Assembly: GCA_030431855.1 (NCBI GenBank)
Contig: JAUIII010000003.1
Span: 1 to 60,453 of the forward strand
Direction of reading: 5' to 3'
DNA: 60,453 nucleotides
Source: a bacterium
GTDB taxonomy: Bacteria; Patescibacteriota; Saccharimonadia; Saccharimonadales; Saccharimonadaceae
Below the pieces are notes generated by a model. The model searched no databases. It had not been told where the DNA came from and saw nothing but the letters and a program-made list of their open reading frames with translations. Both the position numbers and the translations under genes were made by a program. Positions 29,502-33,748 of this stretch are shown one piece after another. Every line of letters begins with the position of its first letter. The first letter of the stretch is position 1.

Positions 29502-29515
29502 ATATGAAAACATAA

Positions 29516-29531
29516 ACGCTATATATAGTGT
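29516..29531. promoter_or_regulatory. NrdR box-like site 1
   Basis: ACGCTATATATAGTGT matches the NrdR box (acaCwAtATaTwGtgt) at 15 of 16 positions. It lies 293 bp upstream of nrdA. Confidence 0.7.
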
Positions 29532-29609
29532 AGCGTTGCTTTTTTACAACACTATAAGGGGTAAAATAAGCAAAAACAGCATGTGGTTAAAAAAACTATC
29601 AAAAAAGCC

Positions 29610-29638
29610 TTGCAATGACTATATATAGGGTCTATAGT
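29610..29638 (+). promoter_or_regulatory. nrd operon promoter with NrdR-like box 2 in its spacer
   Basis: TTGCAA (29610-29615), 17 bp, TATAGT (29633-29638). The spacer is almost entirely the 16-mer TGACTATATATAGGGT (29616-29631), a second NrdR-like box centred exactly 100 bp from box 1. Bound NrdR would occlude RNA polymerase. Confidence 0.65.
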
Positions 29639-29808: not shown

Positions 29809-32235
29809 ATGAACGGAATTCATGTGGTACATCGCGATGGCACACGCATACCATTTGACGCCAACAAGATAAACCTTGCGCTTCTGAAGGCAGCAGAGGG
29901 ATTGCCTGATCCAGTAAGCAAGGTAGTACAAGTAGCAACCGAGCTACAACTAACATTATTCGATGGAATTACCACCGAGCAACTAGACGAAGCGGTGATA
30001 CACACTGCACTGCAAAACGTCAAAGACGACCCAGACTACGACACTGTAGCGGCTCGCCTAATGCTAAAGAATGTCTATAAAAACATTCTGGGTGATTTCG
30101 AATCTGCAGAAGACGTCAAGAAACTGCACGAGAAAAAGTTCCCTGCATATGTAAAGCAAGCCGTAAAAGACGGCCTACTCGACAAGCGCATGAGCGATGG
30201 TCGCTACGACCTAAAGAAACTAGCCGAAGCGCTGGTACCGGAACGCGACGATTATTTCCGCTATGTTGGTTTGGTAACCAACATGAACCGCTACGCGCTG
30301 CGCCTACACGGTGACGCAAAGAAGCCACTAGAGGTACCACAGTTTACGCACATGCGTATTGCCATGGGTCTCAGCTTCAATGAAAAAGACCCAACCGCTA
30401 GCGCGCTAGAGTTCTACGACCACATGAGTCGGCTGGAATACGTAACTGGTGGTTCGACTCGCGTGAACGCTGGTGGCGCATTCCCACAACTTTCAAACTG
30501 TTTCCTACTAGAAGTTCAAGACGACATGGAAGCGATTGCAAAATCGGTACGTGACACGATGTGGATTGCTAAGGGGACTGGTGGCATTGGCATTACTATG
30601 ACCAAGCTACGCGCAGCGGGGAGTCCTGTTAAGACAACCAACACTGAAAGTACCGGCCCAATTCCGTTCATGAAAATGATCGACACAGCGCTATTTGCCG
30701 TGAGCCGTAAAGGCAAGAAGATGGGTGGAGCAGCGATGTACCTGGAAAACTGGCACATCAACTTCCCAGAATTTTTGGACCTACGTGCCAACTCGGGCGA
30801 CCCATACATGCGTACTCGTATTATGAACACCGCTTGCTACCTGAGTGACGAATTCATGAAGCGCGTGGAAAAAGGCCAAGATTGGTACATGTTTGACCCG
30901 AGCGAAGTGAGTGACCTACCAGAACTATACGGTAGTGCATTCTCAAAGCGCTACGCAGAATATGTAAAGATGGCAGAAGCCGGTAAACTGCGTGTATTCA
31001 AGAGTATTCCTGCCCGCCAGCAGTGGCGTCAGATTCTAACGCAACTACAGGCAACCAGCCACCCATGGGTTACGTGGAAAGACGCTATCAACGTGCGGGC
31101 ACTAAACAACAACACTGGTACTATTCACTGTTCAAACATGTGCACAGAGATTACGCTGCCACAAGACGAAAAGAACATTTCTGTGTGTAACTTGATTTCT
31201 ATCAACCTCAGCCGTCACCTTGGTGATGACCTGAAATGGGACTGGAAGCGCATGGAGCAATCTGTTCGCGCAGCGACTCGCCAGCTTGATAACCTAGTGG
31301 ACATCACCGACACACCAGTAGTAGAAGCGATGAACTCGAACACCAAAAACCGCGCTGTTGGCCTAGGCCTGATGGGCTTTACCGAAGTAATCGAACGCTT
31401 GAACCACAGCTACGATTCAGAAGAAGCCTACGAACTAATCGACCAAGTTACCGAGTTTATTAGCTACTACGCCATCGACGAATCAACCAAGCTTGCTAAA
31501 AGCCGTGGTAACTACGAAAACTTCAAAGGCAGTGGCTGGGATCAAGGCTTGCTACCTATCGACTCGCTCGACATTCACGGTAAAGATCGTAAAGAACGCG
31601 TGACGGTGAGCCATAAAACCCGCCTCGACTGGGAAGCACTGCGCGCCAAGACTAAAAAAGGCATGCGCAACGCAACCCTCATGGCGATTGCGCCAACCGC
31701 CAACATTGGTTTGGTCGCTGGTACGACACCTGGTCTCGACCCACAGTTCGCACAAATCTTCTCGCGTGCTACATTGAACGGTAAGTTTCTTGAAGTAAAC
31801 CGCAACATGGTGGCGAAACTGAAAGAACTTGAACTATGGGAACAAGTAAAAGACGAAGTGCTGGCAAACCAAGGTGATATTCAAACTATCGATGCCATCC
31901 CACAGCACGTAAAAGATGTGTACAAGACGAGCTTCCAGCTCAGCCCATACGCGTTTATCGAAGTAGCGGCTCGCGCACAGAAATGGGTAGACCAAGCGAT
32001 TTCACGCAACATGTATCTTGAAACCCGCAACGTTGATGACTACGAAGACATTTACATGGAAGCCTGGAAGCGTGGCCTAAAAACCACCTACTACCTGCAC
32101 GTAAAGCCTCGTCACCAGGCCGAGCAAAGCACCACTAAAGTTAACAAGACAGAAGAGATGGCAAAGAAATCTGGCGGCCCACGCCGATCAGGGTTCGGCT
32201 TCGCGACAAAACAAACAGTAGGAGGGGGAACATGA
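29809..32235 (+). CDS. nrdA: ribonucleoside-diphosphate reductase large subunit (class I)
   Basis: NrdA reduces NDPs to dNDPs using a radical delivered by NrdB. The 808-aa protein begins with an ATP-cone (residues ~3-92), so dATP inhibition is expected. The catalytic core has C231 and C460 (redox pair) and N443-C445-E447 (thiyl radical site within CSNMCTEI); KTTYYLHVKPR carries the Tyr-Tyr radical-transfer pair. It ends ...TKQTVGGGT without the C-terminal Cys pair that normally re-reduces the active site. A micro-ORF with such a tail starts in an ATGA overlap at the stop, behind a run of five G. A GGGGA Shine-Dalgarno precedes ATG 29809. The operon continues to nrdB. Confidence 0.97.
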   Translation: MNGIHVVHRDGTRIPFDANKINLALLKAAEGLPDPVSKVVQVATELQLTLFDGITTEQLDEAVIHTALQNVKDDPDYDTVAARLMLKNVYKNILGDFESAEDVKKLHEKKFPAYVKQAVKDGLLDKRMSDGRYDLKKLAEALVPERDDYFRYVGLVTNMNRYALRLHGDAKKPLEVPQFTHMRIAMGLSFNEKDPTASALEFYDHMSRLEYVTGGSTRVNAGGAFPQLSNCFLLEVQDDMEAIAKSVRDTMWIAKGTGGIGITMTKLRAAGSPVKTTNTESTGPIPFMKMIDTALFAVSRKGKKMGGAAMYLENWHINFPEFLDLRANSGDPYMRTRIMNTACYLSDEFMKRVEKGQDWYMFDPSEVSDLPELYGSAFSKRYAEYVKMAEAGKLRVFKSIPARQQWRQILTQLQATSHPWVTWKDAINVRALNNNTGTIHCSNMCTEITLPQDEKNISVCNLISINLSRHLGDDLKWDWKRMEQSVRAATRQLDNLVDITDTPVVEAMNSNTKNRAVGLGLMGFTEVIERLNHSYDSEEAYELIDQVTEFISYYAIDESTKLAKSRGNYENFKGSGWDQGLLPIDSLDIHGKDRKERVTVSHKTRLDWEALRAKTKKGMRNATLMAIAPTANIGLVAGTTPGLDPQFAQIFSRATLNGKFLEVNRNMVAKLKELELWEQVKDEVLANQGDIQTIDAIPQHVKDVYKTSFQLSPYAFIEVAARAQKWVDQAISRNMYLETRNVDDYEDIYMEAWKRGLKTTYYLHVKPRHQAEQSTTKVNKTEEMAKKSGGPRRSGFGFATKQTVGGGT

Positions 32236-32297
32236 CAGAAACCACCTGCAACTGCAGTTGCAGCTGCTGCCAAAACTGCGACAGCTGCCAAAAATAA
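32232..32297 (+). CDS. Cys-rich micro-ORF resembling the NrdA C-terminal redox tail
   Basis: A 21-codon frame, MTETTCNCSC then SCCQNCDSCQK, with seven Cys. The end CDSCQK resembles the C-x2-C tail that closes many bacterial NrdA proteins (endings like CESCQ). Its ATG overlaps the nrdA TGA (ATGA), in the -1 frame, and GGAGGGGG directly upstream serves both as a Shine-Dalgarno and as a possible slippery run. One extra G in the run would make the tail contiguous with nrdA. It could be a separate redox peptide, the product of -1 frameshifting or transcriptional slippage, or the result of a G-homopolymer sequencing error. All three keep the tail meaningful. Confidence 0.7.
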   Translation: MTETTCNCSCSCCQNCDSCQK

Positions 32298-32332
32298 ATC
32301 TAAACATTACAAGGGTATAAGGGAACAACCAA

Positions 32333-32506
32333 ATGAACGCAAACTCAATCATCACCGACAACATGACACTAGAGGAAAAACTAGCGGCTATTGACGCGGC
32401 GATGGCAAACGCACAAGCACAAGCCAACGACGAAGCGGCTGCAAATGGCACCATAGCAGCACCAATCGACCCAGCACTATTAACAATTTGCGAAGGCTGT
32501 GAGTAA
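32333..32506 (+). CDS. 57-aa small protein ending in CEGCE, within the nrd operon
   Basis: The frame MNANSIITDNMTLEEKL... is helical and very rich in Ala/Asn/Gln in the middle (AAMANAQAQANDEAAANG), and ends LLTICEGCE, a second C-x2-C terminus directly after the Cys-rich micro-ORF. I know no family for it. AAGGG is about 15 nt upstream, so the ribosome site is weak. The last codons overlap the GTG of the next gene by 8 bp, an arrangement that supports real translation. A role as thiol partner of the reductase is an inference from position and the Cys pair. Confidence 0.6.
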   Translation: MNANSIITDNMTLEEKLAAIDAAMANAQAQANDEAAANGTIAAPIDPALLTICEGCE

Positions 32507-32747
32507 CGAGTTCAGCTTTGGTAACGCAAAACACTGGGTAAGCTCAGTCGCGTTCCAGGAAGAGCTTATTATCCTCGACTGCATGAACGACCAAGCGTCG
32601 AGGCGAAGAGCAGAAAAATTACGTAGTAAAGTCCTAGAGGGAACAATCACACTGGTCGCTTTCTCTCCTATGTGGGAGGAAACATTAGAAGACCCCGCGA
32701 CACTGTACCCAACGCTAACATTAGTAACCAAAGAGGAGGTAGCATAA
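32499..32747 (+). CDS. 82-aa small protein between the nrd subunit genes (unknown)
   Basis: The protein starts at GTG 32499 (MSNEFSFGNAKHWVSS), overlapping the previous ORF by 8 bp, and its TAA shares a base with the nrdB ATG (TAATG), so it is translationally coupled on both sides. Sequence: an aromatic N-terminus, a helix with one Cys (LIILDCMNDQASRRRAEKLRSKVLEG) and a C-terminal beta-like part (TITLVAFSPMWEETL, TLTLVTKEEVA). I recognise no family. Position suggests a ribonucleotide reductase accessory protein. Confidence 0.7.
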   Translation: MSNEFSFGNAKHWVSSVAFQEELIILDCMNDQASRRRAEKLRSKVLEGTITLVAFSPMWEETLEDPATLYPTLTLVTKEEVA

Positions 32748-33748
32748 TGGCAGGAATATTAGGCACCGGTATTCAAGATGGACTACTCTTGAAACCTATT
32801 CATTACCCGTGGGCAATGGAACTATACGACCAAGCGGTCGCGAACACATGGTTCCCGAACGAGATTCAACTAGGCCAAGACCTAGCTGACTGGAAAAACA
32901 TGACCGACGAGGAGCGACACGCAGTTGAGTTCCTGATGGCATACTTTAACCCAAATGAGCTATTGGTAAACAAGGCGCTCGCCTTTGGTGTATACCCGTA
33001 CGTCAACGCCGCGGAATGTCACTTGTACCTAGCCAAGCAAATGTGGGAAGAAGCCAACCACTGTATGGCATTTGAATACGTGCTAGAAACCTTCCCGATC
33101 GACCGTGATAAAGCCTACGCAGCACACGTAGACGAGCCAACAATGGCGCGAAAAGAAGCGTTCGAGACCGAAGCCATCAAGCGAATGACCGAAAAGCACC
33201 TGGATATTACTACCACAGAAGGCAAAAAAGATTTCATTCGCAACCTCGTGGCCTACAACATTATTCTAGAAGGCATTTGGTTCTACAGTGGCTTCATGGT
33301 GGCGCTTTCATTCCGTCAGCGCAACTTGCTACGCAACTTCGCGAGCCTGATCGACTGGGTAGTACGCGACGAAAGCTTGCACCTAAAGTTCGGTATCAAT
33401 TTGATTCTGACGACCCTTGAAGAAAACGAAGATCTGCAAACCGAAGAGTTTGCCAACGAGATCAAGCAAACCATTCTAGAAGCAGTAGAAATGGAAGAAG
33501 AATACAACAAGGCTATGCTGCCAAAAGGTATTCTGGGCTTGAACGCCGACTATGTAAACCAATATGTGAAATACCTGACCGACCGTCGCCTGGAAGAGCT
33601 TGGCTTTGGCGCGCACTACAAAGTGAGCAACCCAGCCAAATGGATGGCAGCAGCCAACGACACCTATGAGTTAGTAAACTTCTTTGAAGCCACCAACACG
33701 AGTTACGAAGTAAACGCCACAAAGGGCTCGGATAAAAAAGAGAAGTAG
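32747..33748 (+). CDS. nrdB: ribonucleotide reductase small subunit lacking the radical Tyr (class Ic-like)
   Basis: The 333-aa ferritin-like protein has all metal ligands: E71 (NPNELLVN), E102 and H105 (EEANH), E175 (LEGIWFY), E209 and H212 (DESLH). At H+4, where E. coli NrdB has radical Tyr122, it has Phe109 (HCMAF). This matches Chlamydia trachomatis NrdB (EEAVHTHTF), which uses a Mn(IV)/Fe(III) cofactor instead of a tyrosyl radical, and the first ligand is Glu as in that class. A Mn-only (class Id) cofactor is the alternative. GAGGAGG precedes ATG 32747. A Mn/Fe transporter gene follows downstream. Confidence 0.95.
   Translation: MAGILGTGIQDGLLLKPIHYPWAMELYDQAVANTWFPNEIQLGQDLADWKNMTDEERHAVEFLMAYFNPNELLVNKALAFGVYPYVNAAECHLYLAKQMWEEANHCMAFEYVLETFPIDRDKAYAAHVDEPTMARKEAFETEAIKRMTEKHLDITTTEGKKDFIRNLVAYNIILEGIWFYSGFMVALSFRQRNLLRNFASLIDWVVRDESLHLKFGINLILTTLEENEDLQTEEFANEIKQTILEAVEMEEEYNKAMLPKGILGLNADYVNQYVKYLTDRRLEELGFGAHYKVSNPAKWMAAANDTYELVNFFEATNTSYEVNATKGSDKKEK

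Follow-up and report, generated by a model that had tools for sequence, protein, structure and literature searches.

In a class I ribonucleotide reductase (RNR), the active-site cysteines of the catalytic subunit NrdA are re-reduced after each turnover by a second cysteine pair at its C-terminus, which thioredoxin, glutaredoxin or NrdH recharges in turn (PMC5704485; PMC6187632), and all class I RNRs are said to hold such a redox-active pair in NrdA (PMC6187632, a 2018 paper). The nrdA-nrdB locus of the window (the whole 60,453-nt stretch of DNA analysed here, on contig C14 of the 830-kb genome G000) encodes a NrdA that ends without this pair, raising the question of where the re-reduction cysteines reside and what the small open reading frames (ORFs) between the two subunit genes encode. 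In Saccharibacteria, the cysteine tail of the RNR is apparently a separate protein of ~57 residues, a detached and swappable part. From sequence comparison, we place the probability at about 0.9 that the 57-aa ORF of this locus represents the C-terminal redox tail of a class I NrdA, now encoded as a gene of its own.

The features of the locus are collected in Table 1. The initial annotation had described two small ORFs between nrdA and nrdB, locked to each other and to nrdB by overlaps of 8 bp and TAATG and resembling neither NrdH nor NrdI. Both overlaps are found as described, the 57-aa and 82-aa ORFs sharing 8 nt (GTGAGTAA) and the TAA of the latter sharing one base with the nrdB ATG at 32747, and neither ORF gives a Pfam or NCBIfam match above cut-off, nor does either match the NrdI-type flavodoxin-like family in Pfam, NCBIfam or PHROGs. 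The same annotation had made the standing of the small ORFs depend on their conservation beside nrdA and nrdB; the 57-aa ORF is kept alongside them, and the 82-aa ORF is not kept while they are. Relatives bearing the same small gene are, in the named collection, metagenome-assembled genomes (MAGs) and single cells of Candidatus Saccharibacteria, TM7 or Patescibacteria, or else MAGs bearing no label but 'bacterium'. Upstream of nrdA, at ~29515-29532 and 29617-29632, are CTATATATAG-type palindromic motifs, which we take to be NrdR-box-like; an Rfam search of the nrdA leader gave no credible match.

Table 1. Features of the nrdA-nrdB locus, in positions of the window
Feature	Position	Strand	Description
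nrdA	29809..32235	+	Catalytic subunit of a class I RNR (808 aa, one ATP-cone); keeps the catalytic cysteines, lacks a C-terminal CxxC; end ...RRSGFGFATKQTVGGGT
Cysteine-rich micro-ORF MTETTCNCSCSCCQNCDSCQK	32232..32297	+	21 aa; start overlaps the nrdA stop (ATGA); Shine-Dalgarno (SD) sequence AGGAGG upstream
Shine-Dalgarno-like AAGGGA	32319..32324	+	8 nt 5' of the tail-gene ATG; GGGTATAAGGG motif kept in most same-genus loci
Putative detached NrdA redox tail ORF	32333..32506	+	57 aa, ATG start, TAA stop; end ...TICEGCE; N-terminal helix MTLEEKLAAIDAAMANAQ..., C-terminal APIDPALLTICEGCE
82-aa orphan ORF	32499..32747	+	GTG start; variable slot; overlap-coupled to the tail gene and nrdB; 3' end holds the nrdB SD (GAGGAGG)
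nrdB	32747..33748	+	Radical subunit of class Ic-like type (333 aa), with Phe in place of the radical tyrosine; PF00268, 1.3e-72

The NrdA of the window matches PF02867 (1.7e-161), PF03477 (9.4e-17) and PF00317 (2.7e-12), the RNR barrel and all-alpha domains thus being present, and retains the catalytic cysteines, its PQLSNC, GTIHCSNMC and SVCNL segments aligning to PQLSSC, CSNLC/HSSNLC and VCNL (5d1y; 5im3). Its match to NF005101 (NCBIfam) ends at profile position 788 of 822, and the cysteine-free terminus (...GFGFATKQTVGGGT) stops just past the conserved GFGFAK segment. All related NrdAs checked in the order share this ending after GFGFAK and have no CxxC. On these alignments, the protein is a class I catalytic subunit that lacks a C-terminal redox tail of its own. 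NrdB, when aligned to the Chlamydia R2 structures bearing Phe (1syy) or Tyr (2ani), carries Phe in that column, and because this is the radical-tyrosine position, both the subunit and the RNR as a whole read as class Ic-like. A single classical thioredoxin is encoded by the genome.

The 57-aa ORF is found in 13 of 13 same-genus genomes with an intact locus, always at a length of 57 aa and always with the end [IM]C[DE]GC[EQ], and it is under strong purifying selection (median dN 0.12, dS 1.2, dN/dS 0.084; 78 pairs within the genus). Its codon score is 0.343, compared with a coding mean of 0.234. Among the 92 copies found with the 57-aa profile, which are usually 57-59 aa long, every one contains exactly two cysteines, both in the terminal CxxC, and 89 match the DP...CxxC pattern as tested. 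The gene lies between nrdA and nrdB in 64 loci and 3' of nrdB in 25, preceded by an SD-like motif in 88 of 89. A near-fused arrangement was seen at one locus (L201, in G100), where one TAG codon alone parts nrdA from an in-frame tail gene. In the predicted structure of the 57-aa protein, residues 13-38 form a single helix (pLDDT about 80), and the CxxC end beyond it is loose; a search of the PDB with the tail profile returned only designed coiled coils and one marginal match.

The ends of these small proteins, such as APIDPALLTICEGCE and APLDPADLTMCEGCQ, or APVDPQDAFQCEGCE in a different family of the order, resemble those of NrdAs that retain a tail. The five nearest fused NrdAs (52-65% identical in the C-terminal region) end in CP[IV]DPQxRxxC[DE]SCQ (CPVDPQLRLQCDSCQ, CPIDPQERLQCDSCQ, CPIDPQERLTCDSCQ, CPVDPQERAQCDSCQ and CPVDPQERLNCESCQ), and the motif common to the free tail and these nearest fused tails is P-[IV]-D-P-x4-C-x2-C-[QE], the free protein keeping P-x-D-P-x4-C-x2-C-[QE] at its terminus. 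We read the free-tail and fused-tail endings as one motif. Fused tails have nothing equivalent to the N-terminal helix, so clear homology is limited to the last ~15 residues.

The distribution of the small ORF follows that of the tail-less NrdA. Across 295 genomes of the order, with related NrdA called at E below 1e-50, 49 contain a related NrdA and all 49 contain the small ORF: the 57-aa profile picks it up in 46, and in the remaining three (G249, G330 and G383) direct reading showed divergent copies that adjoin nrdA and end in DP..D.xxCEGCQ. In the 246 order genomes without a related NrdA, the search for the small ORF yielded two weak profile matches, neither convincing. A weak match in G250 was rejected, the terminal CxxC being absent, and those in G200 (a 23-residue match within a 600-aa frame) and G460 (a stop inside) are treated as chance. 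In the wider family sample, the tail is present in nearly every locus whose contig is long enough, the exception (L148) ending shortly past nrdB. Related NrdA was itself seen in only about half of the near-complete genomes of a family sample (matches in 79 of 139, a few of them just distant, class II-like ones), and the remaining genomes may lack a class I RNR.

Beyond the order, a fused tail is the general state, occurring in 24 of 26 Patescibacteria NrdAs from the phylum sample. For the two exceptions, G529 and G624, it was predicted that a separate tail ORF would lie somewhere in the genome, and this held in both. With the tail profile and the pattern C-[DE]-x-C-Q-stop, the reversed pattern serving as control, one pattern match was found in each genome and the reversed control gave 0; two fused-tail genomes (G420 and G706) likewise gave one match each, located at the nrdA end. 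The separate tail ORF of G529 lies just 3' of nrdB and ends ...GDPNLNVCESCQ, and the fused NrdA tails of its family relatives end GDPNLNICESCQ. That of G624 is a 36-aa ORF, MPDKKAQKNSIADSDWDKPMVCPIDPEELKECEACQ (MPDKK...MVCPIDPEELKECEACQ), situated behind a strong SD and 66 kb from nrdA. Detachment of the tail therefore took place no fewer than three times. In a tree built on 150 columns, both NrdAs fall among distant fused forms, away from the Saccharibacterial group. Split and fused forms of the near subfamily are divided by a single change; the 150 columns do not fix its direction (fission or later fusion), which rests instead on the fused state being general.

Two other explanations for the 57-aa protein deserve weighing. 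It could be a small protein of independent origin that shuttles thiols or stands in for a redoxin, with an NrdH-like role in reducing NrdA or NrdB, and that was never derived from an NrdA tail. Its place between nrdA and nrdB, its terminal CxxC and its helix, absent from fused tails, would suit such a protein, and a second thiol shuttle is what the initial annotation had suggested. However, the end of the protein agrees with fused NrdA tails, the NrdA lacks its own tail wherever a 57-aa-type ORF occurs, the separate ORFs of G529 and G624 are unmistakable NrdA tails, and neither a redoxin fold nor an N-terminal redox motif is present, the 57-aa protein having no redoxin match in Pfam or NCBIfam. 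An independent shuttle is thus improbable; the earlier suggestion was right in spirit, and what appears to be encoded is not an extra, NrdH-like redoxin but the NrdA's own tail, missing from the enzyme here and fused to it in outgroups. A point counted against this tail reading is that the micro-ORF near nrdA could supply an additional thiol donor within the same genus.

Alternatively, stop-codon readthrough or frameshifting might join the tail to NrdA in translation, so that no separate protein would be made. In six genomes nrdA and the tail ORF are kept apart by just one in-frame stop, and the distance between the nrdA stop and the tail ATG is 3-181 nt in 65 loci, yet the frame offset in these 65 loci is random (19, 20 and 26 across the three frames), the gene has an SD of its own, and it lies 66 kb from nrdA in G624 and alone on viral contigs. 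Since the tail is 3' of nrdB in 25 loci, it is not a readthrough extension of NrdA there. This joining was rejected on the random frame, the gene's own SD and the loci with the tail 3' of nrdB, and it is the least probable of the explanations considered.

In ordinary class I RNRs the NrdA tail is flexible, and it is disordered in structures. For the detached form, we infer that the N-terminal amphipathic helix would dock the free tail on NrdA or on the NrdA/NrdB complex, replacing the covalent tether. Once in the active site, the tail would reduce the disulfide in trans and depart oxidised, plausibly to be reduced in turn by the thioredoxin of the cell. An AlphaFold2 model of a natural NrdA-plus-tail readthrough frame (G003) was poor, with a mean pLDDT of 53 from only 21 sequences, and speaks neither for nor against docking. 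The trans scheme would account for the truncated look of Saccharibacterial NrdAs, would supply a ready means of assaying the re-reduction step, itself poorly understood, in trans, and would assign a function open to testing to a small ORF outside all family models used here. The CxxC tail has been described as built into every class I RNR, and a natural two-piece form would show the tether to be dispensable.

The tail protein is also encoded, at 51-58 aa, on 20 IMG/VR contigs of 5-86 kb (e.g. MNANEVVNDDMTLDEKLAAIDAAMEKAQVEAKKDNPNAAPLDPADLTMCEGCQ), none of which has a PF02867 or PF00268 match to an RNR subunit, although the contigs may be fragments. Neighbouring genes include those for a terminase, a primase and an amidase (endolysin), and in L310-L313 the tail gene is followed, within about 200 nt, by a redoxin ORF, that of L312 being a glutaredoxin (PF00462, 6.5e-13). 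In the MAG UBA6039, a tail is found on a 37-kb contig sharing several ORFs with the viral locus L304, and a chromosomal nrdA-tail locus is present in the same MAG, a hint that the viral host is a Saccharibacterium. No tail match was obtained among isolated phage genomes. By carrying the tail on its own, in some cases next to a glutaredoxin, viruses would increase the electron supply to the host RNR. We consider it fairly probable that the tail diffuses freely and can be exchanged in Saccharibacteria (two or more other Patescibacteria having reached this state independently), and that viruses of Saccharibacteria carry it alone, sometimes with a dedicated glutaredoxin, to raise host RNR activity without an RNR of their own. 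If so, the viral tail would count as an auxiliary metabolic gene of unusually small size, and the viral copies would point to re-reduction as a limit on RNR in these ultra-small parasites. The viral tail genes of L303, L305 and L307 adjoin a polynucleotide kinase-phosphatase-like gene (PF25109/PF13671; profile-checked in L303 only).

Compared with known class I (Ic-like) enzymes, the ATP-cone and active-site cysteines of NrdA, the Phe of NrdB as in Chlamydia class Ic, and the tail motif as in outgroup NrdA are all familiar, whereas the cysteine pair here appears on a separate small protein rather than on NrdA. The closest precedent comes from class II, in the split NrdJa and NrdJb of Pseudomonas, where the re-reduction cysteines likewise belong to a separate gene (PMC5704485; PMC9669993); NrdJb, however, is a folded class II cysteine-rich/zinc-finger domain of 150-220 aa, in contrast to a class I tail of ~57 aa comprising a helix and two cysteines. 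NrdH-redoxin and glutaredoxin are also small CxxC proteins delivering electrons to RNR from within nrd operons, a role that would be shared by the 57-aa protein, but they possess a thioredoxin fold with an N-terminal CxxC, and the 57-aa protein has neither. The glutaredoxin-NrdB fusion of Facklamia ignava (PMC6187632) is similarly a rearranged electron supply to a class I RNR, though there an external reductant was fused, whereas here the internal shuttle of the enzyme itself would have been detached. No report of a split class I tail was found in the open-access literature searched, most subscription papers lying outside it. What we rate as new is the architecture of a familiar enzyme, with a detached class I tail, together with the viral copies of the detached part.

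The 82-aa ORF poses a different problem. Its composition score of 0.143 is coding-like (95% of non-coding frames fall below 0.049) and it is probably translated, and no homologue was found in 60 relatives. Between the tail gene and nrdB is a slot that, across the genus, is occupied by unrelated ORFs of 33-144 aa, among them an unrelated 89-aa ORF in the closest species (G012, NrdB 98% identical); in many genera it is nearly empty, with a gap of 5-63 nt (under 70 nt). The initial annotation had proposed a radical-cofactor assembly factor. The tight TAATG coupling to nrdB and the coding-like codon use would befit such a dedicated NrdB partner, but because the content of the slot varies, even in so close a relative, and many genera have no ORF there at all, a conserved assembly factor is not supported and this role is very improbable.

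That the 82-aa ORF is a fast-evolving or de novo translational bridge, its sequence largely free and its main task to bring ribosomes from the tail gene over the gap to nrdB, stands at about even odds and is compatible with the tail reading. Slot ORFs usually start at or near the tail stop (often at an offset of -1, -8 or -10), the majority of them span the gap, the 82-aa ORF encodes the nrdB SD in its own end, and slot sequences are non-homologous between most genera. Against a bridge of free sequence, some slot ORFs are kept in neighbouring genomes (L007/L015, 55% over 134 aa; L137/L150; L010/L014/L016), which hints at functional, lineage-specific products. A translational bridge or a lineage-specific product is therefore likelier than a conserved assembly factor. 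Slot ORFs were seen in about 29 loci, mostly non-homologous and translationally coupled, and several in the genus carry FQGxxVP.

The cysteine-rich micro-ORF at the nrdA stop ('CDSCQK') was rejected as a general NrdA tail, since most genera lack it and its copies in three same-genus genomes are degenerate; equal position and pattern are found in the other 10 of 13 same-genus loci. MTDCTCNCSCDCCK-like micro-ORFs of 11-25 aa occur in the window, in L006-L010 and L014-L017, and also in L136, L158, L162 and L166, a patchy conservation. The product is possibly a metal- or thiol-binding peptide. In the genus, the micro-ORF always starts at an ATGA overlap with the nrdA stop, with a good SD in front.
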